Positions 1 to 35,724 of a DNA stretch of 35,724 nucleotides are shown in pieces. Source of the stretch: Candidatus Levyibacteriota bacterium. GTDB lineage: Bacteria; Patescibacteriota; Microgenomatia; Levybacterales; UBA12049. The position numbers and the translations under genes are program-made. The stretch lies in assembly GCA_029260905.1 (NCBI GenBank), contig JAJDCH010000015.1, positions 1 through 35,724 of the forward strand, written 5' to 3'. The notes below the pieces were generated by a model, which saw only the letters and a program-made list of their open reading frames with translations, ran no database searches and was not told the DNA's origin. Every line of letters begins with the position of its first letter. Position 1 is the stretch's first letter.

Positions 1-3000
1 ATTAAGCCTAGTTTGATATTGTCAATAAATTCTTTGATCTGGGCATTTTCAGTAATTATGTTTGGTGTTTGAGTATTGCCTTCATTCTGAGGAGAAATAG
101 TTACAGAGTTTGACAGATTGCCGTCTGATTTTACATAGATGAATGGATCATAAAAACCAGTTTGTAGGGTAATCATGATGTTGCCTTTTATGTTTTGATC
201 TGTATTGTTATACTTTTCAAGTGCTCGTCCTACAATAAAACCTTTATCAATTGTTTTGACTCCAACTCCTTGATTGTTGCTTGTTGTTATCAAGTCGCCG
301 GGTTTTATTTCTCCATTTTGAGAAGATACAAAAGTTTTGACAACACCAGTTAGACCAACTTCAATTGATTTGTTTCCATTATCAATTCCACCCAAAAATG
401 CAGGATTTTTTGAGGCAACACCAATTACGTTTTTGAAATTATCATCACAAAGAACAGCAAAACCTTGATCGTCAAGACAAACTATCGAGCCGTATGGTAT
501 ATCAGTAGATTCATCCTTCTTGAAATATTCAGCAAAGTCCGCAACACCCGATGTTTTATATGTTACACCATTTGATCCATTTCCCTGAATTGATCCAACA
601 AGTCCAAGGCCGTTTGTCTCAAAGTTTATGAAGTGATTGTTTGTTGAGACTGTAGATCCGGTATTTCCAAGTTTTATCAGCAGCCCATCAGCATCTGAGC
701 TAGTATCAGTATTATAGATCTGTGCTGAAGTACTGGTTCCTTTAGAATCTCTCACATCAAGAGCAAATGCTGGAACAGCCGTTCCCACTCCAAGTCGTTT
801 GTTAACAGCATCAAAGAAGAATGAGGAATCGACATCGAGAAGGTTTTTTGTGTTTATAAAAGGAATTGAACCAATTGAAAATCCTTCAAGCTTTATGCTT
901 TGTTTTTCAGGAATTACTATTCCAGCCTTGGCATTTAGCAATCCGTTCAAATTTATCTCTGATTCAGACCATCCTATGTTAATATTCCTGACTGATCCAG
1001 TTAATAGGTTAAAGGTATTGGCGTTGGATTTTATATTTTCTCCATTTATATTAAGATCGCCTGCAATTGTAGTATTGCCCTTCCTGTCAACAACGAATTT
1101 AGCAAATCCATCACTTTGACTGCTAATGAGATTTCCACTTCCATTTTGGTTGATGATAAGGGCGGATTGGTCATTGTCACTATTTGAGATAACCAGATTA
1201 TCAGCTATCTCAACAGCTCCTGAGGCTAAGCCCAGATTGTTACCTTCTGATGTATTTTGTAATGGTTTTTGCAAGTCTATTATTCCTGACCCATCGGGCG
1301 ATATTATTACATTTCCGTTTGATCCAGAGTTGCTTGAGAGGATAAGTGATTGTCCTGAAAGGCTGAAGTCACCACCAGTTGCCTGAAAGACTGGGTTTGC
1401 GGTTCCTCCAATTGTTAGATTTCCAATTGAATCAAGAGCAAGGATGACATTTTTTTCACCTGAGCCAACTTCAGTAATAGGTTTTAGTCCTTGAAGAAGC
1501 TGAGAGTTGTAGCTGTTTGAAACATTTGCTAATGATTGTCTGGGCTTTAGTTCGCGACCATTGCCAATTGTGATGCCTAGATAGAGTTCTTGGTTTGGGT
1601 TAAAAAGTGATTCATTGATAGCAGTGTTTTTACCAAGTGATACGGAAAATCTACCATCCAGATCAGGTGTTACTGTTTGTGACTCGCTCCAAAGCAAAGT
1701 ATTATTTGATGCTGCTTCATCATTGTAGATTGCAAATTTTATTTCTGTGGGGGTTTTTATTGGCTCCCCATCAGTATTGGTTAGTTTTCCTTGGAAAGGG
1801 ATTATCCTAGGCGTTGGGGATTGTGATTGTCCAAGCACTGCATTTTTTACAGCCTGATTATTGATTTTATTGTAAATGCTTAATCCTCCAAAAACCAAAA
1901 AAGCCAGAAGAAGCCCGAAGTGCACATAGTTGACTGTTTTTATTGAATGGTATTTGTGATACCAGTCTGGTCTTTTGAAGCGGATGTTGTGGATTAGTCT
2001 TTTCCAAAACGTAAGAGATGTTGTTGAAATACCAAGAGGCGCATACATTGTTTTTGGTAAGTTTCTTATAGAGCTGATCGGTTTTTTGTTGTTAGCTATT
2101 ATAAATCTGTCTAGAAGGCTAAGATGGTTAGCGCTTGAAACAGCTGACTGCTTAATTTGATTATCTTTTATGGCTGGAAGCATTTCTGAAATGGGTATAA
2201 ATACAGATTTGCCAGTTAGTTTCCAGAGATTGTATTTTAGTCCTATAAAAATTTTGGCGAGGGAAATTATGACTGCTCCATCAAGCAGCAAGAAGAGTAG
2301 GTGTTTGCTGACCTGCAAAAGCCTTAAGGGAGGAAAGCCTGAATACTCAGGAGAGATATTTTTTTCCCGATCGGGAATATATTCTTTTCGAGACTGGAGT
2401 GCGATAATGTTTGGAGAACTGGCCTGTTTTTCATTTGTATCAACATCAGTCTGGCTATTTTTTTGTGACAGGATTCTTGTTCTTGTCAGCTCTCTTTCAA
2501 GCTCAGTTATATTTTTTATTATACCTTTTTGAGATGCAAAGATAAGATATTTTCTGATTGAAGACAGTTTTCTGTTTATGCTGATAGGTGAGAGGCCTGC
2601 TTCAGTAAGAAGTCTTTTTTTGTATTCATTAACTACAGAAATGTTTACAGCAAATTCAGGATCATCCGATTGAGAAACCATGGTTACCCATTTGCTGAAG
2701 TGAACCATGTCAGCCATATAGTTCTTGATTGTATTTTTGCCTGATTTTGAGCTATAAAGATAGTTTTTAAATTCAGTCAGTCTCCATCTATCAATTATTT
2801 TAGGCTTTTGAGTAGGCAGTGTGGCTGGATTAAAGGAAAGAAGTTTGTGGTCAATTAAAAAGTCAAAGAACTTGGTGAGAGATGATGAATAGCGTTTTAT
2901 GGATCTCGGAGAAAGAGGAGAAATTTTTTTATATTCATTACCATATTCTAGCTCTGTAAGATAAAGCTCAATAATGCCTGGATTAATTCTTCTAGGCAAA

Positions 3001-3134
3001 AACTCTCTCTTAAGAGTGATCTGATACCAGGCTAAAAACTTCCTAACGTCGCTGAGATAGTTTTTAAGGGTTGTTTTATTTACCTTTCTATCAGCAGATT
3101 GAAGATATGCTTTAAATGCGTTTATTATTTCCAT
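1..3134 (-). CDS. Membrane-anchored surface protein, partial (C-terminus off the left edge): two tandem tyrosine-recombinase core-binding (SAM-like) domains + TM helix + tail-fibre-like extracellular region
   Basis: Hand translation of the minus strand from ATG at 3134 to the window edge found no stop (about 1044 codons). Begins MEIINAFKAYLQSADRKVNKTTLKNYLSDVRKFLAWYQ...LSPRSIKRYSSSLTKFFDFLIDHKLLSFNPATLP, followed by a second copy LTEFKNYLYSSKSGKNTIKNYMADMVHFSKW...LSPISINRKLSSIRKYLIFASQKGIIKN. Then TM VNYVHFGLLLAFLVFGGLSIY, then a repetitive beta-rich ectodomain with ...VADFAEYFKKDESTDIPYGSIVCLDDQGFAVLCDD...IGVASKNPAFLGG. Upstream in-frame stop at about 3162. Not listed in the ORF track because it runs off the edge. 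Confidence 0.88.
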   Translation of the reverse strand, partial: MEIINAFKAYLQSADRKVNKTTLKNYLSDVRKFLAWYQITLKREFLPRRINPGIIELYLTELEYGNEYKKISPLSPRSIKRYSSSLTKFFDFLIDHKLLSFNPATLPTQKPKIIDRWRLTEFKNYLYSSKSGKNTIKNYMADMVHFSKWVTMVSQSDDPEFAVNISVVNEYKKRLLTEAGLSPISINRKLSSIRKYLIFASQKGIIKNITELERELTRTRILSQKNSQTDVDTNEKQASSPNIIALQSRKEYIPDREKNISPEYSGFPPLRLLQVSKHLLFLLLDGAVIISLAKIFIGLKYNLWKLTGKSVFIPISEMLPAIKDNQIKQSAVSSANHLSLLDRFIIANNKKPISSIRNLPKTMYAPLGISTTSLTFWKRLIHNIRFKRPDWYHKYHSIKTVNYVHFGLLLAFLVFGGLSIYNKINNQAVKNAVLGQSQSPTPRIIPFQGKLTNTDGEPIKTPTEIKFAIYNDEAASNNTLLWSESQTVTPDLDGRFSVSLGKNTAINESLFNPNQELYLGITIGNGRELKPRQSLANVSNSYNSQLLQGLKPITEVGSGEKNVILALDSIGNLTIGGTANPVFQATGGDFSLSGQSLILSSNSGSNGNVIISPDGSGIIDLQKPLQNTSEGNNLGLASGAVEIADNLVISNSDNDQSALIINQNGSGNLISSQSDGFAKFVVDRKGNTTIAGDLNINGENIKSNANTFNLLTGSVRNINIGWSESEINLNGLLNAKAGIVIPEKQSIKLEGFSIGSIPFINTKNLLDVDSSFFFDAVNKRLGVGTAVPAFALDVRDSKGTSTSAQIYNTDTSSDADGLLIKLGNTGSTVSTNNHFINFETNGLGLVGSIQGNGSNGVTYKTSGVADFAEYFKKDESTDIPYGSIVCLDDQGFAVLCDDNFKNVIGVASKNPAFLGGIDNGNKSIEVGLTGVVKTFVSSQNGEIKPGDLITTSNNQGVGVKTIDKGFIVGRALEKYNNTDQNIKGNIMITLQTGFYDPFIYVKSDGNLSNSVTISPQNEGNTQTPNIITENAQIKEFIDNIKLGL

Positions 3135-4886
3135 AGGCAGTTTATTTTCACAGATTTTATTTTATGTATCATTAGCTTCAAGATTATACTGATTATACGC
3201 GTTATATAAATATTAGTACTATTATTAATAGCATAGATAAATCTATGAAAACTTGTCAAGAGGCAGATTTGATCTATTTAAGTTACATATGATATATTTA
3301 TTTAACTTTTTAAAAAGAACAAAAAATAAGCTTTTATATTAATTCTCATAATTTGAGGCTGTGAAATAAATCATTTTCACATATTTTTTATGAAAACATG
3401 AGGCTAAAGATGAATTTCTGGGGTAAGAGAATACTCAAAAAAGCTGTCAGAGACTAGAAAAAGAAAATCAATATTTAATATGAGATATATTTTAACATTT
3501 GTTATTATATATTAATAATTACCGATATTAAACATTCTCCATAAATAAAGCCTGTTTTTATACAAATTATCAATTCACATACACAATTGCTAGTTTTTTT
3601 TAAAGCTTGTTTTGGTTGATATATCGATAAAAAACAACAATATTAATATTGTAAGATACTATGTAGTAGTTTTATTGATTTGATAGTCTTATTTAAACTA
3701 AATCAATAAATGATATGTATTTACTATCAATATTAATTCCTATATTAAAAATTTTAATTTTTTGAAAATAATAAGAATAAATTCTGAGGCTAAAAATAAT
3801 AGCTTAAGAATAATTCACTGCTTTACAATTAAAAAAAAACATATATTTAACAATGAGAATCCAGTCAAATTACTGTATATTTGGTAGATAAAAATCTTTA
3901 TTTTATCTTATTAAATTAGCTTGATTTAACAGTCTGATCAATACAACTTGTAGTATGATGGTTCTACAACTTATAGTTAGTCTGTGGAAACAGATTATAA
4001 GATAATAAAAATATGTTATTTTTTGTGAAAAAATTCTTTTTTACAGCTTATAGATTTATTAATATGTAAAAAATAGTTTCTAAGCCTGTAAAAACTGATT
4101 ATAAATTTTTACTCATGAATTTATCTAAAATTGATATCCTTTGATATGTTTTATTTTTTTTAATTATAATCTTTTAGCTTTCAAATTGAATATTCGGGAA
4201 ATATATTAAGTCTTATATTTATATATTATATATGATTAGTATATTATTATGGGAAAAAGTTGTATTTTTGCCTCAATATAGTAAGTATTTAAATATTAAG
4301 CTTAAATTTTAGTGAAAAGATAGAAAGACTTCTTTTATCTTGCTTACGTTTAATTTTTATTGTTAAATATAGGATTTTGAGTATAAAATTACGTGATTAA
4401 AGATGGCGCGAGCTTGATTTGAGGCCAGAGCATAGGTAGGTGAGTGCTAGATGTGGCTCTGAAATATAGACAGTGGATTTTGTACATCTGTATGTTTTAA
4501 ATTGTCTTAGAAATGATTTGGTGACTTTTTAACTAAAATGTCCCGATAGCGAGTTGAATAACTTGATATTAGCAGAGTGTACTTAGAAGTGATAGATATT
4601 GAAAAGCTTGACAATACGGGACGTACATGTTTTTTTAAATAATCTACTTATGAAAGTGATTGTTTTAATAGCTTTATAATTAAAATTAGAATGAGTATTA
4701 TAAAACAATAATTATATTACTAATTTTAGATTAATTCTTATATTATTGCAATTAGATTTTAATAAAAATAAAAATCTGGATCATTGGTTTTAAAATTCTT
4801 TCACTTGGAGCTATATACATTTATTTATCTGCTCTGGTAGGACTGTGCATCTTATCTTAGTATTTACTTTGTGGTTAAACTTGAAA

Positions 4887-4905
4887 AGCTTGTTAATAAC
4901 AAGCT
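4887..4905. repeat. Perfect palindrome AGCTTGTTA-A-TAACAAGCT
   Basis: Read directly: 9-bp arms around a single central base, inside the AT-rich spacer. Confidence 0.7.
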
Positions 4906-5308
4906 ATCTCTAGAATTATGCCTCAAGTCTAACTGTGAACTTATTAATTTCTGGTGTGTGAGAATAATTATGTTTATTCAATATCTGTTTTAACTATAAT
5001 TTATATTAGCTTAAGACTATTTTAGTGAGTTGAAGCTTAGGTTAATTATTTAAAGCTTAAAATTAGTTAATTTTTAATAGTGTTTGTGGGGAAGAACGCA
5101 AGAAAAGAAGAAAATGCTTAATAATTTTATTAGGATATAAATACTAAAAAGATCAGTTGTTATTTCCAGTTTCATAAATGAAGCAAAAACCATATGATAT
5201 ACCTATAGTAAGCTACATTTAATATAGTAATTATTTTTACTCCATCAATAGGGACTTGTAGTAATAAAAATTTAATCATTTTTAGCCTCAAATACTTCTA
5301 TAAGACTT

Positions 5309-5323
5309 GTTCAATCTTTGAAC
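5309..5323. repeat. Inverted repeat GTTCAA-TCT-TTGAAC upstream of the HTH-TM gene
   Basis: Read directly: 6-bp perfect arms, just upstream of a candidate TTGACA -35 at 5333-5338. Confidence 0.55.
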
Positions 5324-5389
5324 TTATAAGCATTGACAAGCTGTTCAAATTATTGTTAACATAAATTAAAGTAATAATTACTTTTCTTC

Positions 5390-6859
5390 ATGCAGACTTC
5401 TAAAATTTATCATCTCTATTCAGCTAAAGAAAAAATAAGATTAATTTCTGAATATAAAAAAGGCGAAACAATTACTAATATTTGTAAAAAAGCAGGTATA
5501 TCACGCACTATATTCTATCGCTGGATTAAGCGTTTTGATGCATCAGTTGATAAAGAAACAGCGCTGGAAAACATGCACAAAAAAGGAGATCAGCACTGGA
5601 GACATCTTCCTGGTCTTAATGAATTTATTCTTAAAATTGTTTCAAGTCATCCGGAGCACTCATTATCAAGTCTTTTATCTGCAATTGAAGCAGAAAAAGG
5701 CAATGTTATCAGTAGAACAGGTCTTTACTATATTCTAAAAAGATATAATTTAACTGAGGCTGAATCAAGATATGCATATGCAGATGCGGTAAATACAATT
5801 ATTGGATCAACTGTAGCGCTTGAGACAAAACAGAAAGAGGAAGAACCAGTTGGAATAGCTGCAGAGAATGAAAATTTAGCATCAAAGAAAGAAAATAAAA
5901 CTTTTTTTCCGATCTGGCAAAGATCAGTATTTGCTGTTTGTATGGTTTTGATTTTGATTAATTCAGTTTTGATTTTGAGCTTAAATTTAAACGCTTTTGA
6001 TCTAGAGAGATTTATAGACCCTTTTAAGTTTACAAAAGTTAAAGAGGATGGAAAAGTACCAAAATTAGAGCTTGAGAAACCCTCAGATCAGATATTTATA
6101 CCAAAACATGTCTATCATCAGGATTTGAATTGGGGAGCTATGGCGTTTAATACAATTAAAAGCATTTACAAAAAAGGAGAGGCAATGACATTTGGTTTTG
6201 GATTTATCGATAACCTAGGTCAGACGATCTGTGATGCAGACATTGGATTGATCATTACAGATCAGGAAAACAAAACTCTTGGATCTCTCAATACGAATAG
6301 CAGAGGTGTAACACGCAGTAGCGAGTGTGGATTTGTAAGCGTCACAAACGTGCCTGATTATTTGGCAACGGTTTCAGCTGATTTGAAGGAGGGCAGATAC
6401 AATCTTCGTTTTACTACTGAAACCTACAATGGCAAACGCACTTTTGATGAGAGCATTTTAATTACTGATAGAGTACCGTTTGAGGTTGAACGAAAATCAT
6501 ATCCGTCAAGGATCTTCCCAAATGCAGAATATCCTGTAGAAATATGGATAAATGCAGAAAAAGATTTTGTTGGTGAAATAGAAGAGGAGATACCACATAT
6601 TTTGGAGATATCTGAAATATCAAGTGGCGGGATAAAAATCAATAAGTCAAATAATAGAAGTGTGGTACGCTGGAAGGTAAATTTGAGAAAGAATCAGGTT
6701 CACAAACTCAGATACACAATTGATTTTCCACCAACTTATCCTGCTTTTTATGAGGTAGGACCAATGGTATTTAAAGATAATAAATCAGCAGAAATTGTCT
6801 TTAGTGAGGCAAGATATTGGCAAATTGTTGCCGATAGCCTGCCACAAATAAAGCTTTAA
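5390..6859 (+). CDS. Transposase-type HTH (IS3/IS630-like) fused to a TM helix and extracellular region
   Basis: 489 aa. N-terminus YSAKEKIRLISEYKKGETITNICKKAGISRTIFYRWIKRFD is a classic transposase HTH. A second helical module LNEFILKIVSSHPEHSLSSLLSAIEAEKGNVISRTGLYYILKRYNL resembles IS630-type HTH. TM RSVFAVCMVLILINSVLILSLNLNAF. Beta-rich C-terminal ectodomain. No DDE catalytic domain seen. Confidence 0.85.
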   Translation: MQTSKIYHLYSAKEKIRLISEYKKGETITNICKKAGISRTIFYRWIKRFDASVDKETALENMHKKGDQHWRHLPGLNEFILKIVSSHPEHSLSSLLSAIEAEKGNVISRTGLYYILKRYNLTEAESRYAYADAVNTIIGSTVALETKQKEEEPVGIAAENENLASKKENKTFFPIWQRSVFAVCMVLILINSVLILSLNLNAFDLERFIDPFKFTKVKEDGKVPKLELEKPSDQIFIPKHVYHQDLNWGAMAFNTIKSIYKKGEAMTFGFGFIDNLGQTICDADIGLIITDQENKTLGSLNTNSRGVTRSSECGFVSVTNVPDYLATVSADLKEGRYNLRFTTETYNGKRTFDESILITDRVPFEVERKSYPSRIFPNAEYPVEIWINAEKDFVGEIEEEIPHILEISEISSGGIKINKSNNRSVVRWKVNLRKNQVHKLRYTIDFPPTYPAFYEVGPMVFKDNKSAEIVFSEARYWQIVADSLPQIKL

Positions 6860-8156: not shown

Positions 8157-9137
8157 TTACCCATTCTCCATTTTTTTCCTCACCCTTTTATAAATAAAAA
8201 TCACAACAATCAGGCTTAGGAGAGCGATGCCTGTTGGTTTGACAGGCATGACGCTAAATTTTGTGAGTGCAGATATTGTTTGAGTTTCCGTTATATCAAG
8301 TCTGACCTCAGCTGTATAAATTCCAAAAAGTATTCTTTCATTCCAGAGAATTGAGTCAGTTTGAGGTTGATCTGTCAGTCGGCGGGTGCTGTCTGCTAAT
8401 ATATTTTCAGGCCTTACTGGTATTTTTGCAATTGTTTGACCAAACATATTTTTGACAAAAATAAAGCCTTTTGGATAAATCATATTTATGCCTCTGTTCG
8501 TAACACGAAGTGTAAAGGGAATTGGTCCTGATTCAAAATTATTTGTTGTTTTGAATTCTTCTATTTCTACACTTGGTGTTGTGAAAGGACCAACAGACAG
8601 AAGGACGTTTGTGGCAAGACCGATTTGATTTATAGAATAGGCTGTTTTTAATTCATCTTCATCAACAGGTTCAAAAACAGGATCATTTTGACTTAATAAT
8701 ATAATTGAAAAGTAATAATCAATTGATTCTTGGTTGTCTGGTACTACTATTTTTAGATTTAGAGTTTTATTTTCTTTTGGGGAAAGAGTTATTTTATTTG
8801 CTACGAAATCAGCATCAAGTAGTCTGATATTGCGTTTGAAGGAAGGGTTAGGGTCTTCAATTAGATACTTAATATCTCCTTTTTCTTCCCTTCCAGCCTC
8901 AAATGGTTTTATTTCTATATTTAAATTAACCGTATCATCGCCAAGATTTTCAATCAAGATCGGTAACTCTTTTTCAAAAGGTGGTTCTGCAGTTATTTTA
9001 ATAAGAGTGGGTGAGAGGCGTATGTTTGATGACTCAGCACGAGCTGTCTCCAAGCTAAAAGCTAAAAACGCAAAGTTAAAAACCACAATCCAAAACGTAG
9101 AAATTAATAATTTTGTAATAGGATTTTGATTCTTCAT
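8157..9137 (-). CDS. Secreted, C-terminally membrane-anchored beta-sandwich protein (DUF916/WxL-interacting-like architecture)
   Basis: 326 aa; signal peptide ...FAFLAFSLETARA; SSNIRLSPTLIKITAEPPFEKELPILIENLGDDTVNLNIEIKPFEA; C-terminal TM PTGIALLSLIVVIFIYKRVRKK. Confidence 0.65.
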   Translation of the reverse strand: MKNQNPITKLLISTFWIVVFNFAFLAFSLETARAESSNIRLSPTLIKITAEPPFEKELPILIENLGDDTVNLNIEIKPFEAGREEKGDIKYLIEDPNPSFKRNIRLLDADFVANKITLSPKENKTLNLKIVVPDNQESIDYYFSIILLSQNDPVFEPVDEDELKTAYSINQIGLATNVLLSVGPFTTPSVEIEEFKTTNNFESGPIPFTLRVTNRGINMIYPKGFIFVKNMFGQTIAKIPVRPENILADSTRRLTDQPQTDSILWNERILFGIYTAEVRLDITETQTISALTKFSVMPVKPTGIALLSLIVVIFIYKRVRKKMENG

Positions 9138-9138
9138 A

Positions 9139-9783
9139 CTAATATCTTGGAATCGCCATATAGATAAGATTATTGCTATAAATCCCCTCCTTTTGGGTTC
9201 CTTGAATATTTAACTTATAAATAATCTTAGTTTGAAAAATATTTTGAAGGAGCTTGTTGTCTAAGAGATTGACTGGATTATCACCCTCTGAGATATCAGA
9301 AAATTGACGGAATGAATCATTTTCAAAATTTGGTAACCTATATCCAAATCCATAAGTTAAATTATTCTTCCAGATTGATGATCTAGCCTCATTACAAACC
9401 CCATCATCACAAGTGGTATCAGGTATTAGCTGATTTCCACTTTTTAATTTTTGTTCTTCATAAGCCTTGAGATAATAATTGTCCCCAATTGTTTTTAAGT
9501 TGGCCGTTCTTATTACAGGCGTGGTTGCAGTTAGTGGACCAAAATCAATAAGGATGGGGTCAATTGAAATATGGATAAAAGAGTTATTTGTTTCAGTTGT
9601 CATTATTTTTTGTGGAACAGAAGTAGGCGTTGGGGTGGGGGTTGAAAATGCCTGATTTGGTAGTTTACGAAAATCAGCGTCATTAATATTGTATGAATCA
9701 TTTGATGTTTCAAAAGCGTGTGCTGGCGTAATAGCAACAAGCAATAAGCAACAAGCAATAAGTATATAATTTGTAATTTTCAT
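9139..9783 (-). CDS. Secreted protein, candidate WxL-like/beta-sandwich surface protein
   Basis: 214 aa; signal peptide IACCLLLVAITPAHA; Thr/Pro-rich linker PTPTPTSVPQ; FIHISIDPILIDFGPLTATTPVIRTANLKTIGDNYYLKAYE. Adjacent to and co-directional with the 8157-9137 gene. Confidence 0.6.
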   Translation of the reverse strand: MKITNYILIACCLLLVAITPAHAFETSNDSYNINDADFRKLPNQAFSTPTPTPTSVPQKIMTTETNNSFIHISIDPILIDFGPLTATTPVIRTANLKTIGDNYYLKAYEEQKLKSGNQLIPDTTCDDGVCNEARSSIWKNNLTYGFGYRLPNFENDSFRQFSDISEGDNPVNLLDNKLLQNIFQTKIIYKLNIQGTQKEGIYSNNLIYMAIPRY

Positions 9784-9950
9784 CTGTGACTCTTTTATGG
9801 TAGTTGATTAGACGGACTTTGACAACAGATGTTTAACAAATAATTGATAACTTTTTAAATCCTAAATCAAACAAGCCTAATATAATATAGGATTTCTATA
9901 AAATAATTTTACTGTATATTATCTGATTTTTGGTTTTTATAAATAAAATT

Positions 9951-10005
9951 AGCCTCAAAAAAGTAGATCATAAAATATCAAAATCAACTTAATTTATTTG
10001 AGGCT
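9951..10005. repeat. Inverted pair AGCCTCAA ... TTGAGGCT
   Basis: AGCCTCAA at 9951-9958 and TTGAGGCT at 9998-10005, in the divergent intergenic region upstream of leuS. Confidence 0.7.
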
Positions 10006-10153
10006 GACAAGACCTATTTATACAGGATAAATAAATATTATAATATTTTGACAAATATGCAATCTTTTTTCATGCTTGTTTATATGGTATACTCATTAAA
10101 ATGATCATTCTTCTTTAAAAATTTGAAAGAACACTAAAAAAACAAGGCTAAAA

Positions 10154-12964
10154 ATGAAAAAAATAAAAAATAATACATATGACCATACGGCGATTGAGCT
10201 GAAATGGCAGTCTGTTTGGGGAAAAGAAAGAACTTATCAGCCAGACCTTAACTCTGCTAAAGAAAAATTTTATAATTTGATGATGTTTCCTTACCCATCA
10301 GCAGAAGGCCTTCATGTTGGCAGTATGTACACTTTTTCAGGTGTTGATGTTTATGGAAGGTTTAAGCGAATGCAGGGTTATGAAGTTTTTGAGCCAATTG
10401 GGCTTGATGGTTTTGGAATACACTCTGAGAATCACGCGATAAAGACAGGTACTCATCCGGTTGAGCACGCCAAAACAACAGAGGAAAATTTTTATAGACA
10501 ATTAAAAGAGATTGGAAATGGGTTTGCATGGGAGCAAAAGCTTGAGACGTATGACTCAGCGTATTATAAATGGACGCAGTGGATTTTTGTTCAGCTTTTT
10601 AAGATGGGGCTTGCATATCGCAAGAAAGCACCAGTTAATTTCTGCCCGTCTTGTAAAACAGTTCTCGCAGATGAACAGGTGATTGATGGAAAATGTGAGC
10701 GGTGCGGGTCAGTTGTTGAAAAACGTGATCTTGAACAATGGTTTTTCAAAATAACTCAATATGCAGACAGGCTTCTTGACAATATAAAGGATCTTGACTG
10801 GACTGAGAAAATAAAAATTGCACAAAGAGAATGGATCGGCAGATCTGAAGGCGCGAAAATAAGATTTAAGATTGAGGATTTAAGATTTAAGAATAAAGAC
10901 GTTATAGACATAGAAGTTTTTACCACAGCAATTGATACCATTTATGGGGTCACATTTATGGTGCTTGCCCCAGAGCATCCATTAATTAAATCTTTGATAA
11001 AAGGCGATTTGGGGATAGGCACAGAAACAATTGAGAAAGTTAAAGATTATGTTGAAAAAGCAGGAAAGAAGTCCGAGCAAGATAGAATGGCTGATGTAAG
11101 GGAGAAGACGGGTGTGTCTACAGATCTTTTTGTCATAAATCCATTTAATAACGAGAAAGTGCCTGTTTGGGTGGCTGATTATGTGCTTTCCGGTTATGGA
11201 ACTGGTGCTGTAATGGCAGTTCCCGGACATGACGCGCGTGATCATGAGCTTGCTTTGAGGTTTGGGTTGCCGATTAAGGTTGTTGTGCGACCAATTAAAG
11301 ATGTAAAAGATGCAAAAGTTGGAAAAGATGGATTTTGGGATTATCCTGAGATCAAAACTAAATTTAAGGAAAAATCAGTTCTTTTTGATTCAGGTGAATT
11401 TGACGGACTGACAAGCATAAAAGCAAAACAGAAGATGTTTGATTATATTGAAAAAGAAGGTTTTGGAGAAAGAACCAAGACTTATCATCTCCGGGATTGG
11501 TTGATTTCAAGGCAGAGATACTGGGGGCCGCCCATCCCGATGTTGTTTTGCCCAAGCTGCAAGGAAAGGGGAGAGAGCTGGTTTACAATGGAAGAAGGAA
11601 AGGGGTGGCAAGAATCAAGAATTAAGAATCAAGAATCAAGGAAAGAAAAAATTGGATCCGCCAACTGGGCGGAGGAAATTGGAAATTCGAGCGAAGCGAT
11701 GGCTGGTTGGTATCCGGAGGAAAATTTGCCGGTTGAGTTGCCTTACATTAAAGATTTCAAGCCGCTTGGCATCCATTCGGCAGGTTCAGGACAAGAAGCC
11801 AAAGGTCCTCTTGCCAATCATCCTGAGTTCTATGAAGCCAAGTGTCCTGAGTGCGGTGGTAAAGCGAGACGAGAAACAGATGTCTCTGATACATTTCTTG
11901 ATTCTTCTTGGTACTTTTTAAGATATTTGGCAGCCGACTGGGATGATATGCCTTTTCCATCAGTTGAATTTGCAAAAAGCAAAAAGCAAAAAGCAAAAAG
12001 TAAAGAAGAAATTGAAAATTGGAATTTGAAAATTGAAAATTCTACGCATCGCGCAGCGTGGCTTCCAGTCACTATGTATATTGGTGGCGCTGAGCACGCT
12101 GTGCTTCATCTTCTTTATGCGCGGTTTATATCAATGGCAGTTCATGATTTGGGTTTGACTGACTTTGAAGAACCATTCAAAAAGTTCTATGCACACGGTC
12201 TTGTTATAAAAGATGGTGTGAAAATGAGTAAAAGCAAAGGAAATGTAGTTAATCCTGATATTTATATTAAAAAGTACGGTGCTGATACTCTTCGAGTTTA
12301 TTTGAGATTCTTGGGACCTTTTGATCAGACAGGGGATTTTCGGGATTCAGGCGTTGAGGGAATGCACCGCTTTTTGAAACGTGTCTGGAAATTGTTTCAA
12401 AAAGACGGAATCTCAAATCTCAAATCTCAAATTTCAAATGAACGACTGCATGAGATGCATGAAACGATTAAGGGCGTGACTGGGGATATGGAAGATTTGC
12501 GTTTTAATACAGCAATTGCAAAACTAATGACCTGGTACAATTTTCTTGCCAAACAGGACCAGGTTAGTTTTGAAGAAGCTGAGGCATATTTGAAATTGTT
12601 AGCTCCATTTGCACCACACATGGCAGAGGAGATTTGGCAATTTCTTCAAAGATCAATGATCAATGATTTAGGATTAAAGAATAATGAAAAAGATCAGAAA
12701 TCTTATCTTTTAAATCTTAAATCTATCCATACTAGTTCATGGCCTGAGTTTAATGAAAAATATTTAGTTTCAGAATCAGTGACTATTGCTGTTCAGGTCA
12801 ATGGAAAATTGCGCGCGACACTTGAAGTTTTAACTGATGATGCCAAAGATCAGAAAAAGATTGAAGAAATGGCAAAAAAAGACAAAAATGTGGCTAAATT
12901 TATTGAAAATGGAATAAAAAAATCCATTTACATTCCCAACAAAATCCTCAATTTTGTGGTTTGA
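10154..12964 (+). CDS. leuS: Leucyl-tRNA synthetase
   Basis: 936 aa; MMFPYPSAEGLHVGSMYTFSGVDVYGRFKRMQGYEVFEPIGLDGFGIHSENHA, editing domain GTGAVMAVPGHDARDHELA, KMSKSKGNVVNPD. Confidence 0.97.
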   Translation: MKKIKNNTYDHTAIELKWQSVWGKERTYQPDLNSAKEKFYNLMMFPYPSAEGLHVGSMYTFSGVDVYGRFKRMQGYEVFEPIGLDGFGIHSENHAIKTGTHPVEHAKTTEENFYRQLKEIGNGFAWEQKLETYDSAYYKWTQWIFVQLFKMGLAYRKKAPVNFCPSCKTVLADEQVIDGKCERCGSVVEKRDLEQWFFKITQYADRLLDNIKDLDWTEKIKIAQREWIGRSEGAKIRFKIEDLRFKNKDVIDIEVFTTAIDTIYGVTFMVLAPEHPLIKSLIKGDLGIGTETIEKVKDYVEKAGKKSEQDRMADVREKTGVSTDLFVINPFNNEKVPVWVADYVLSGYGTGAVMAVPGHDARDHELALRFGLPIKVVVRPIKDVKDAKVGKDGFWDYPEIKTKFKEKSVLFDSGEFDGLTSIKAKQKMFDYIEKEGFGERTKTYHLRDWLISRQRYWGPPIPMLFCPSCKERGESWFTMEEGKGWQESRIKNQESRKEKIGSANWAEEIGNSSEAMAGWYPEENLPVELPYIKDFKPLGIHSAGSGQEAKGPLANHPEFYEAKCPECGGKARRETDVSDTFLDSSWYFLRYLAADWDDMPFPSVEFAKSKKQKAKSKEEIENWNLKIENSTHRAAWLPVTMYIGGAEHAVLHLLYARFISMAVHDLGLTDFEEPFKKFYAHGLVIKDGVKMSKSKGNVVNPDIYIKKYGADTLRVYLRFLGPFDQTGDFRDSGVEGMHRFLKRVWKLFQKDGISNLKSQISNERLHEMHETIKGVTGDMEDLRFNTAIAKLMTWYNFLAKQDQVSFEEAEAYLKLLAPFAPHMAEEIWQFLQRSMINDLGLKNNEKDQKSYLLNLKSIHTSSWPEFNEKYLVSESVTIAVQVNGKLRATLEVLTDDAKDQKKIEEMAKKDKNVAKFIENGIKKSIYIPNKILNFVV
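11610..11643 (+). repeat. Heptanucleotide tract (AAGAATC/T)n inside leuS
   Basis: AAGAATC AAGAATT AAGAATC AAGAATC AAGG read directly; encodes WQESRIKNQESRK. Confidence 0.85.
11974..12041 (+). repeat. Two consecutive heptanucleotide tracts, (AAAAAGC)n then (GAAAATT)n, inside leuS
   Basis: AAAAAGC x3 + AAAAAGT, then GAAAATT GGAATTT GAAAATT GAAAATT; encodes AKSKKQKAKSKEEIENWNLKIENS. Confidence 0.85.
12410..12439 (+). repeat. Heptanucleotide tract (TCTCAAA)n inside leuS
   Basis: TCTCAAA TCTCAAA TCTCAAA TTTCAAA TG read directly; encodes SNLKSQISN. Confidence 0.85.
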
Positions 12965-13133
12965 TAGATTTTATTTATCGAAAAAAAGTTTTTTAAGTTT
13001 AATTTTGACATTTAATTTATGCGATCGCTTCAAAAAAATGTGTAATTCACTATAGAAAGTTTTTAAAATTTTTATAAAAAGACTATAAAACATACTCTTT
13101 ACAATCCTTTTAAAAACTTCTAAGCTGAGACTA

Positions 13134-13745
13134 ATGGCTTTCGAAGATAAATTAGATTTTATAAAGCAGTATGCATTGCCACTTGGTCTTGGTTTGGCGG
13201 GATTAATTTTTGTCGGCTATGGAATTTTCTCAACAATTGGTACAGATCAGAAGAATGACGATATATTGTTTGAGTCTGCTGATAAGACTGAAACTGAGGA
13301 AGAAAGGAAGATTACAGTTGATGTGGCTGGAGCCGTGGAAAAGCCTGGAGTTTATACGCTTTCTGATGGTGCAAGGATTCAGGATGCACTTATCAAAGCA
13401 GGTGGGATGAGTGTTGATGCAGATCGTGTAAAAATAGCCAAAAATCTCAATTTAGCCTCAAAGTTAACAGATTCAGCAAAGATTTATATTCCATTTACGG
13501 GTGAAGCCGAAGGAAGTTCAGATCTAGTTCTGGGCGCAGATGATGTAAGCGGTGAAGTGGGAGATCTGATAAATGTAAATACTGCAACTGTTGCACAACT
13601 TGATACGTTACCAAATGTGGGTCCAATTACTGCAGGTAAGATAATTGCAAATAGACCATATGAAAAAATAGAAGATTTGGTGAGTAAAAAAGCGGTAGGG
13701 CAAGCAACTTTTGAAAAGATTAAAGACAAGATAAGCACATATTAA
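13134..13745 (+). CDS. comEA: ComEA-like competence protein (SLBB + helix-hairpin-helix)
   Basis: 203 aa; N-terminal TM; VDVAGAVEKPGVYTLSDGARIQDALIKAGG (SLBB); LINVNTATVAQLDTLPNVGPITAGKIIANRPYEKIEDLV (HhH). Confidence 0.92.
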   Translation: MAFEDKLDFIKQYALPLGLGLAGLIFVGYGIFSTIGTDQKNDDILFESADKTETEEERKITVDVAGAVEKPGVYTLSDGARIQDALIKAGGMSVDADRVKIAKNLNLASKLTDSAKIYIPFTGEAEGSSDLVLGADDVSGEVGDLINVNTATVAQLDTLPNVGPITAGKIIANRPYEKIEDLVSKKAVGQATFEKIKDKISTY

Positions 13746-13873
13746 ATTTTTAATTGATCTATTTAACCTAATTTCTAAAGAAATACGAATTAATCATATT
13801 AATATTTAGATAATTATGGCTTGGTTATTGATTAGATCAATTAGAAATTAGACTAATTAGAAATTTCAAACAA

Positions 13874-15109
13874 ATGTCCAAAGCCACAGTTATTTTTTTA
13901 GTTATTATTCTTAGTTCTGTTTTAGCTTTTCGCTTCAATCATTTTTATTCAAACCAGAATCACTATAAAGATAAAGAAATCGTTGAATTTGAAACAAGAG
14001 TTCATGAAGAACCACAATTTCTACAGGGTACTCAAAAATTTAGGGTTTTTGCGCCAAACAGCACGAGAATAAACATAAAAATGATTATGTCTCCTGTACT
14101 TGAGTATGGTGATCGGATAAAAGTAAAGGGTATTATAGTAAAGAAAGATTATGATGGGTATCAGTACTTCGCGATCAACTATCCCGATGTCCAAATAGTA
14201 TATAGTGAACAAAATTTTATAACAACATCTGCAACTTTTATTAGAAGGAAAGCCAAAAGTCTTTATGAAAGCTCTCTTTCTCCAACAGCAGCTGGCCTTT
14301 TAACTGGGATAATTTTTGGTGGCAATCAGGGTTTAGATGATGATTTTCTTGATCATCTCCGCTCAACAGGAGTCGTGCATGTGATCGCTGCAAGTGGTAT
14401 GAATGTTACATTTGTGGCTGGAGGATTGATATTTGTTCTTTCAAAATTTTTTCGGCGACAAACAGCTATAATTGCTGCAATTTTGGGAATGCTTTTCTAT
14501 ACCTATATTTCAGGTTTTGATGCATCTATTGTAAGAGCTGCGATAATGGCTGTTATTGCATTTTCTGCAAGTCTTTTTGGCAGACAGAATTTTTCATTAC
14601 TTTCTCTTTTTTTAACAGGATTTTTGATGCTTTTTGTCAAGCCAAGCAATATTTTTGACATAGGATTTCAGTTGTCTTTTCTTTCAACTCTTGGAATTCT
14701 TATAATTAAACCATTTTTTTCATCTGTTAATAATTTATTTCTATCGGATGATGTGGGGACAACAATTTCTGCGCAAATTGCAACCTTTCCAATTATTTTT
14801 GGGGTTTTTGGACAGTATGGTATTCTTTCAATTGTAGTTAATGGTTTGCTTCTCTGGACTGTGCCGATCTTGATGGTAATTGGATCAGTTGGACTTATTC
14901 TAGGTATGATTTTTGAGCCATTTGGTAGATTGATTCTTTATTTTTCAATACCGATTCTTTTTATTTTTGAGCAAATTGTTAATCTATTTGGTGGTTTTGG
15001 CCTTGTTTGGACAATCCAAAATTTATCCCCACCAGTTTGGATAGGCTATTATTTGATTTTGGCAGGATTTATTGCGTTTTTAAACAAGCGCAGGAAACAA
15101 GAATTATGA
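13874..15109 (+). CDS. comEC: ComEC/Rec2 N-terminal membrane channel domain
   Basis: 411 aa, polytopic; GLLTGIIFGGNQGLDDDFLDHLRSTGVVHVIAASGMNVTFVAGG, FDASIVRAAIMAVIAFSASLFGRQ. Confidence 0.9.
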   Translation: MSKATVIFLVIILSSVLAFRFNHFYSNQNHYKDKEIVEFETRVHEEPQFLQGTQKFRVFAPNSTRINIKMIMSPVLEYGDRIKVKGIIVKKDYDGYQYFAINYPDVQIVYSEQNFITTSATFIRRKAKSLYESSLSPTAAGLLTGIIFGGNQGLDDDFLDHLRSTGVVHVIAASGMNVTFVAGGLIFVLSKFFRRQTAIIAAILGMLFYTYISGFDASIVRAAIMAVIAFSASLFGRQNFSLLSLFLTGFLMLFVKPSNIFDIGFQLSFLSTLGILIIKPFFSSVNNLFLSDDVGTTISAQIATFPIIFGVFGQYGILSIVVNGLLLWTVPILMVIGSVGLILGMIFEPFGRLILYFSIPILFIFEQIVNLFGGFGLVWTIQNLSPPVWIGYYLILAGFIAFLNKRRKQEL

Positions 15110-15130
15110 TTTAGATCTTAATAAAGACAT

Positions 15131-15994
15131 ATGAAGAAATATTCTATCTATATTCTCGTCCTTTTGATTGTTCTGTCAGTGTTATTTATTTATCAGGAAA
15201 TAAAATTTAATGATGGGAAGTTGCATATTGTTTTTTGTGATGTGGGACAAGGAGATGGAATTCTTATCACAACCCCTAGTAAGAAACAGATCTTGATTGA
15301 TGGCGGACCTGATAAAAGTATTAGTGATTGTTTATCAAGAAATATGCCTTTTTGGGATAATAAGATTGATCTCGCTATTCTTACGCATCCACACCAAGAT
15401 CATTTTTCAGGTCTTTATTTTGCGCTGGAGCGTTATGAATTTAAAGGTTTTGTAACAGAAAATGTTGCTAATACATCTGAAAGCTATAGAGATCTGATTG
15501 CAAGAATAGATGAGCAGAAAATCCCTAGAAAATTTGTTGCTAGGGGTGACAAGTTCAAGATGTCAGACGGTGTGATAATTGATATCAAGGGACCGGATGC
15601 AAGCTTTTTAAAGCTAAATTGCATAGATGGCATGATATCAGATTGTACAAATCAGGTAACGCTTATCACATCTCTGAAGTATAAAAATTTTGATGTTTTA
15701 TTTACTGGGGATAATGAAACAGAGGGACTTCTTGATGTTCTAAGCGAGTTTGAGAAAGATATTGAGGTGATGCAGGTTCCACATCATGGCTCAGCATCGG
15801 GTTTGGACTCCAAGATTTTGGACGGGATTGATCCCGAGCTAGCAATTATTTCAGTAGGCGCGAAAAACCGTTTTGGCCATCCCAAAGAATTCATTCTTGA
15901 ACTTTTGGAGGAAAAACGAATTAGGGTTTTGCGAACAGATGAGCATGGCGACATTCAGATCGTGAGTGATGGGGAGGGGTGGAGGGTTGAGTGA
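15131..15994 (+). CDS. ComEC-type metallo-beta-lactamase-fold hydrolase (separate polypeptide)
   Basis: 287 aa; N-terminal TM; HIVFCDVGQGDGILITTPSKKQILIDGGPD...LAILTHPHQDHFSG...VLFTGDNE...MQVPHHGS. Confidence 0.92.
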   Translation: MKKYSIYILVLLIVLSVLFIYQEIKFNDGKLHIVFCDVGQGDGILITTPSKKQILIDGGPDKSISDCLSRNMPFWDNKIDLAILTHPHQDHFSGLYFALERYEFKGFVTENVANTSESYRDLIARIDEQKIPRKFVARGDKFKMSDGVIIDIKGPDASFLKLNCIDGMISDCTNQVTLITSLKYKNFDVLFTGDNETEGLLDVLSEFEKDIEVMQVPHHGSASGLDSKILDGIDPELAIISVGAKNRFGHPKEFILELLEEKRIRVLRTDEHGDIQIVSDGEGWRVE

Positions 15995-35390: not shown

Positions 35391-35724
35391 CTAATTTACT
35401 ATCCACCAGTTAAACTTGATGTCGTTTAATTCTGGTGAGTTAATTTCAACGGTGAATGATTCTCCCTGGACTTGATCAGTAACAGAAAGAGGTGTTGCGA
35501 CTTTTGTTTTTGGTGTTATAAATATCTTGGATTTTTCAGTAACACTTGCTGTTTGAATAATCATTTTTCTGGTTCCTTTTTCGATTACCCCTTCCCCAAT
35601 TGATGGATCAACAGCTGCTCCAGCCACTTCTTCCTGATCTTCTTCTATGTTTAGCTTCTTGACTGTTACCTCACCTTCAACTGTCATGTTGCCATCTGTA
35701 TCTATCACAATCTTTCCATTTAGA
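35391..35724 (-). CDS. C-terminal end of a large tail-fibre-like surface protein (N-terminus off the right edge)
   Basis: The frame is open to the window edge, beyond the GTG used by the ORF track: ...LNGKIVIDTDGNMTVEGEVTVKKLNI...SKIFITPKT...GESFTVEINSPELNDIKFNWWIVN*. Confidence 0.78.
   Translation of the reverse strand, partial: LNGKIVIDTDGNMTVEGEVTVKKLNIEEDQEEVAGAAVDPSIGEGVIEKGTRKMIIQTASVTEKSKIFITPKTKVATPLSVTDQVQGESFTVEINSPELNDIKFNWWIVN

Follow-up and report, generated by a model that had tools for sequence, protein, structure and literature searches.

Two divergent genes, referred to here as gene A and gene B, lie at one end of the window, the 35,724-nucleotide stretch that forms contig C7 of a Candidatus Levyibacteriota bacterium whose genome measures 954 kb. 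Each gene joins a DNA-binding module of mobile-element type to a membrane-spanning surface protein, and a long AT-rich spacer separates the two. The features of the locus are listed below.

3..3134, minus strand: gene A, with tandem CB (SAM-like) domains, a transmembrane (TM) segment and a surface fibre, truncated by the contig end
2847..3125, minus strand: gene A CB domain 1, aa 4-96 (Phage_int_SAM_1; model pLDDT 89)
2490..2786, minus strand: gene A CB domain 2, aa 117-215 (invariant T-I-K-N-Y..D and N-R-K-L-S-S motifs)
1872..1928, minus strand: gene A principal TM segment, aa 403-421 (hydropathy)
3135..5389, no strand: AT-rich divergent spacer between genes A and B, 2255 bp, GC 0.23
3171..3273, minus strand: CB-type element (alignment of orthologue upstream DNA)
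3254-3259, minus strand: -35 TTGACA of the CB-type element
3230-3235, minus strand: -10 TATGCT of the CB-type element
3181-3206, minus strand: 9-bp repeats of the CB-type element, TATAACGCG-TATAATCAG-TATAATC
3172-3181, minus strand: TTGAAGCTAA box of the CB-type element
3286..3301, minus strand: ATATATCA box, conserved upstream of gene A orthologues
3360..3381, no strand: TGTGAAATAAATCATTTTCACA imperfect palindrome with the conserved TGTGAAAA/TTTTCACA pair (orthologue upstream DNA)
3354..5290, no single strand: seven TGAGGC boxes, at 3354, 3399, 3785, 4270(-), 4420, 4920(-) and 5285(-) (word count)
5313..5378, plus strand: HTH-type element upstream of gene B
5333-5338, plus strand: -35 TTGACA of the HTH-type element
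5343-5348, plus strand: degenerate left arm GTTCAA of the HTH-type element
5355-5360, plus strand: right arm GTTAAC of the HTH-type element, overlapping the -10
5390..6859, plus strand: gene B, with a paired-like HTH, a TM segment and an outer beta-rich domain, 489 aa
5417..5542, plus strand: gene B first HTH, aa 10-51, with recognition helix S38-R39-T40 (Pfam, model)
5903..5959, plus strand: gene B TM segment, aa 172-190 (hydropathy)

The gene A product, 1044 aa long and open at the contig edge, matches Phage_int_SAM_1 in two stretches (Pfam, E 2.4e-16). It shares with XerC/XerD/XerA and lambda Int the CB fold and the conserved T..Y..D / R.LS..R motifs, but no Phage_integrase catalytic domain (R..H-R..Y) was found in it, the XerD model being covered only from position 3 to 95 out of 290; the CB domain is duplicated instead and fused to a TM segment and a surface fibre. 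Hydropathy gives a weaker candidate TM segment at aa 272-290, so that the topology is a predicted one, and the outer part resembles trimeric-fibre and autochaperone domains (Peptidase_G2, 4.8e-5; mosaic adhesive trimer, 7e-5). Gene B carries at its N terminus the bipartite paired-like HTH of IS481/IS630/Tc-type transposases (HTH_28, 1e-8; HTH_Tnp_1, 1e-6). The likeness is limited to the IS481/IS630 N terminus, covering residues 15-131 against models 284-299 positions long, and no DDE catalytic domain was found; the class has the module fused to a TM segment and an outer or glycosyltransferase domain. Relatives of the outer domain of gene B occur in giant surface proteins, where they are matched without the HTH. 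These Pfam domains and hydropathy segments agree with the original prediction, which had read the pair as divergent fusions of mobile-element DNA-binding domains to membrane or surface proteins.

In the AlphaFold models, both N-terminal modules are predicted to fold as DNA-binding domains. That of gene A (pLDDT 89) resembles the CB domains of lambda Int, Cre and other integrases, and that of gene B (pLDDT 82) resembles the Pax/IstA/TnsB/Tc3 DNA-binding domains; the Foldseek E-values for these modules are weak (best 0.1), with probabilities up to about 1. Helix residues are invariant in both the CB and the HTH module. In PDB 9i5v, chain 14 (401 aa, labelled RaiA, a ribosome factor) likewise has a CB-like N-terminal stretch, and a CB fold therefore need not mean DNA binding.

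The organisation of gene A varies among families. In many of them the gene is split within the second CB domain, always at the same point between helix 2 and helix 3, giving first a soluble ORF, about 160-200 aa long, and then a membrane ORF that starts with the remaining half of the domain (loci L207, L209-L215, L229, L231, L239 and L244 among others). Several families place a single-TM peptide ORF of 40-55 aa between the CB-type element and the CB gene (L246 +71..199, L215, L212, L077, L219, L220), which in some begins inside the TATAAT repeats. A four-helix-bundle (S23-like) gene separates the element from gene A in two genomes (L034:3036-3410 and L067:5892-6281).

The spacer ranks first in length among 186 gaps in a sample of about 220 kb from this genome, in which the median gap is 23.5 bp and the 90th percentile 259, bearing out the claim that its length is conspicuous. 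It is also as free of ORFs as had been stated, the largest being no more than 41 aa, but this is unremarkable at 23% GC because 6 of 60 first-order shuffles are equally ORF-poor. No intrinsic terminator was found within it. The word TGAGGC occurs 7 times against 0.27 expected under a second-order model, far above the best word of simulated sequences; a TGAGGC box also terminates the conserved CB-type element, an inverse copy flanks the -35 in some families, and a cluster of this kind is present in only one other spacer (genome G022). Taken with the elements described below, the sequence supports reading the spacer as the probable back-to-back promoter region of genes A and B, with one conserved regulatory element for each.

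The CB-type element has the consensus TTGACA, 16-18 bp, TANNCT, two or three 9-bp repeats (NNTATAATC) and TTGARGCTA, and was found in all 20 gene A orthologues with upstream sequence; the ATATATCA and TGTGAAAA/TTTTCACA boxes lie farther upstream of the orthologues' element. The exact repeat is possessed by 10 relatives, and in none of them does it occur at any other locus. Upstream DNA of leuS, of similar length and from the same loci, did not display comparable conservation, while the comEA upstream region was dropped as a conservation control because it is mostly leuS coding sequence. A sequence-only model, R1, built from 19 copies of the element, matches 94 of 385 Microgenomatia genomes at E<=1e-3, with a single copy per genome. 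At E<=1e-4 in the same 385 genomes of the class, 69 of 80 among the matches listed are followed within 2.5 kb, on their own strand, by a CB/surface gene, the median distance from R1 match to gene being 300 bp and the chance expectation about 0.001 per genome. The association between element and gene is nearly one-to-one: the CB gene comes first at 20 of 20 further loci that were picked by the element and lay outside model R1, and the element is present at all 35 named CPR loci with a gene start and in 29 of 30 genomes with a full-length gene A, genome G222 being an exception in which gene A occurs without it. The element is absent from 43 non-CPR loci bearing integrase-like matches, and a phylum-wide sample gave no R1 match outside the class. 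Both the sites and the helices of the CB class are nearly invariant.

We considered whether a conserved small ORF runs over the element, in which TATAATCCG would read Y-N-P. The frame varies among families (Y-N-P vs R-I-I) and several families have no in-frame start, and the small ORF was therefore rejected as a general reason for the conservation. The beginning of the coding sequence does overlap the element in families f4, f8, f17 and f23. Two further sites were recorded. An element-like site at L174 (G003:C32:7347-7439) immediately precedes a short excisionase/HTH_17-like ORF; the genome concerned lacks gene A. In the same genome as the window, a 1059-bp gap (L050:8142-9200, G000:C17) carries several GGCTAAA-type and two TTTTCACA boxes; downstream of it lie a gene of 643 aa and one for a Xer-like recombinase.

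Upstream of gene B a different element is found. Eight HTH-type genes, including gene B, have an imperfect inverted repeat, GTTACC-N6-8-G(G/T)TAAC, between the -35 and the -10, and a model built from these 8 promoters (R2) matches 23 genomes; of the 21 new loci where an ORF could be read, 20 have an HTH N terminus next. The upstream gaps of HTH-type genes are long too, often 500-1100 bp or more. Two HTH-type elements, about 0.8-0.9 kb apart, share one upstream region at L148 (G036:C4:41435-41492) and in G258:C36. The HTH-type genes examined outside the window encode HTH-TM-GT2 polysaccharide synthases, some of them near exosortase-like genes, and their GT2 domains are like those of XrtG-associated glycosyltransferases; the matching NCBIfam models span the glycosyltransferase part only and not the HTH, and gene B has no GT2 domain. 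Since the element precedes GT2 fusions and gene B alike, its distribution is that of the DNA-binding module, irrespective of the outer part.

In all 27 HTH-type genes, the bases preceding TAAC correspond to the third residue of the recognition helix: K pairs with [GA]G (9/9), T, V, A, I or P with GT (13/13), Q with TT (4/4) and F with AC (1/1). One row of the covariation script (L265) was scored CT by a last-match rule, its true arm being GGTAAC. This fit was reached by 0 of 200,000 permutations, in which related genes are treated as independent; pairs of paralogues within one genome are free of that relatedness problem, and all five genomes with differing HTH paralogues obey the rule. Binding of the HTH-type module to its own promoter element, predicted from sequence, is thus strongly supported, and the CB-type module may bind its putative element in the same way.

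Gene A orthologues of the CB-CB-TM-surface type occur in about half of 40 relatives, the named ones being mostly Candidatus Levyibacteriota/Levybacteria of the class Microgenomatia; none was found in the sampled genome of the same genus. The conserved order is gene A, its upstream DNA, a WxL-like gene, a small secreted protein, leuS, comEA and comEC, and the part from the WxL-like gene to comEC, conserved across the order, occupies 8157-15994 of the window. The expectation that the pair and its spacer would be conserved together did not hold. In relatives, the upstream DNA of gene A measures 232-1110 bp (GC 0.23-0.36) and beyond it lies a WxL-like or other gene, full-length gene B was found in no other genome among those searched, and the window has gene B and a 410-aa gene as an insertion at the gene A/WxL-like position. 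Relatives thus retain gene A beside leuS-comEA-comEC without gene B, and the two are not a unit. The lasting proximity to comEA/comEC is the one hint of the link to DNA uptake put forward in the original prediction. A DNA-binding membrane protein at this chromosomal place does recur: in G018 an HTH-type protein fills the slot beside the leuS neighbourhood instead. A partial ORF with surface-fibre-like sequence at 35391-35723 means that both ends of the contig fall in surface genes.

No description of the CB/HTH-TM-surface architecture was found in the open-access literature. Perhaps the closest likeness is to ToxR, CadC and TcpP, which also combine a cytoplasmic N-terminal DNA-binding domain, a TM segment and an outer domain in one chain, the topology being a predicted one here. 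For regulators of this type the promoter must meet the membrane (PMC6320335, PMC11856585); CadC clusters, with the locus brought to the membrane, have been documented (PMC6320335), and promoter recruitment to the membrane is known for ChiS (PMC11856585). They bind DNA through an OmpR-type winged helix, whereas the proteins described here have an integrase CB or transposase HTH module; Pfam gives only Phage_int_SAM and HTH_28/HTH_Tnp_1, and no Trans_reg_C match was found. Theirs is a small sensor outside, in contrast to an effector here (a fibre or polysaccharide synthase), and the sites of genes A and B are at their own genes. In the last respect there is a likeness to PutA-type autogenous repressor enzymes, in which an effector with a membrane function also represses its own operon. 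The domains of PutA are unrelated to those of genes A and B, and it is peripheral and has no surface part.

We propose, as a reading that we hold to be rather likely, that both proteins are membrane-anchored self-regulators of cell-surface construction that bind their own promoters. Both probably control their own production, because each element lies almost only before genes with the same kind of DNA-binding module. In this model, the N-terminal module, derived from a tyrosine integrase in A or an IS481/IS630-type transposase in B, would remain cytoplasmic and bind the class-specific element in its own gene's promoter, while the remainder of the protein would span the membrane and build the surface. 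The gene A site would lie just downstream of the -10, at the 9-bp TATAATC repeats, and the gene B site between the -35 and the -10. As both positions would block RNA polymerase, negative feedback is the simplest mechanism; it would limit the copy number of the protein in the membrane, and the locus would be pulled to the membrane while bound. We infer repression rather than activation, the tethering of the locus (from the architecture) and the action of any outside signal.

Two other readings take the same architecture in different directions. The proteins could be activators or sensors of the ToxR/CadC kind, whose topology they share, with a signal from a host or surface sensed by the outer part, and the promoter, possibly along with other genes, switched on or off by the DNA-binding end. 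The TGTGAAAA, ATATATCA and TGAGGC boxes suggest several inputs, and promoter recruitment to the membrane is functional in V. cholerae (PMC11856585). We nonetheless regard this as unlikely, since R1 and R2 give essentially no strong sites at other genes, both elements are placed where a repressor would sit, and the outer parts are fibres or glycosyltransferases and not known sensors. The elements might otherwise be bound by a sigma factor or global regulator, with the CB and HTH domains doing something else, such as making protein contacts or binding the ribosome. With their likeness to -10 boxes, the TATAAT repeats could work via sigma, and the RaiA chain fits a role of this sort, but the elements track the class of the N-terminal module and not the outer part, CB genes stand at all 20 loci chosen by element, and the HTH operators covary with the recognition helix, all of which make this reading improbable.

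The remaining alternatives concern the spacer itself. A role as centromere, origin or terminus-like site, tethered to the membrane through these proteins, would accord with a single-copy conserved element in AT-rich DNA beside membrane-anchored DNA-binding proteins. Against this, no GC-skew flip was found at the locus in several genomes and dnaA lies elsewhere (147 kb off in G006), on which grounds oriC or the terminus was rejected, and gene and element are both missing from many close relatives; we give tethering of the chromosome very little credence. Of the suggestion that the spacer is a binding platform, the promoter-like half stands, with its two conserved class-specific elements, and the centromere-like half, like an origin, is not supported. 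A structured RNA not yet described, or a decayed gene, would account for the length of the spacer and has in its favour a GC-richer patch at about 4390-4640, yet Rfam gave no match up to E 3, the folding z-scores are -0.23 and 0.44, and no second homologous copy of the spacer was found elsewhere in this genome, so that this too is very unlikely.

Returning to self-regulation, membrane anchoring would make the feedback come from the number of installed copies. A bolder version, which we offer tentatively and think somewhat doubtful, is that these surface-building proteins count themselves: unrelated mobile-element modules would have been fused independently to giant fibres or polysaccharide synthases, each finished membrane copy would stop its own production, and, in the many families where it is split, the second CB domain would become functional only once the membrane part exists. 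If true, Microgenomatia would possess a new principle of regulation in the form of self-counting surface proteins. DNA-binding modules of two different mobile-element origins appear to have been domesticated on membrane proteins over many families of one class, each accompanied by its matching element at the gene itself, and in the HTH set the correspondence of recognition-helix residue 3 to operator bases supplies a specificity code ready for use. Autoregulation of the surface proteins is directly testable without culturing the bacterium, and bears on the control, in bacteria that are ultrasmall and probably host-attached, of surface proteins whose length can exceed thousands of residues.
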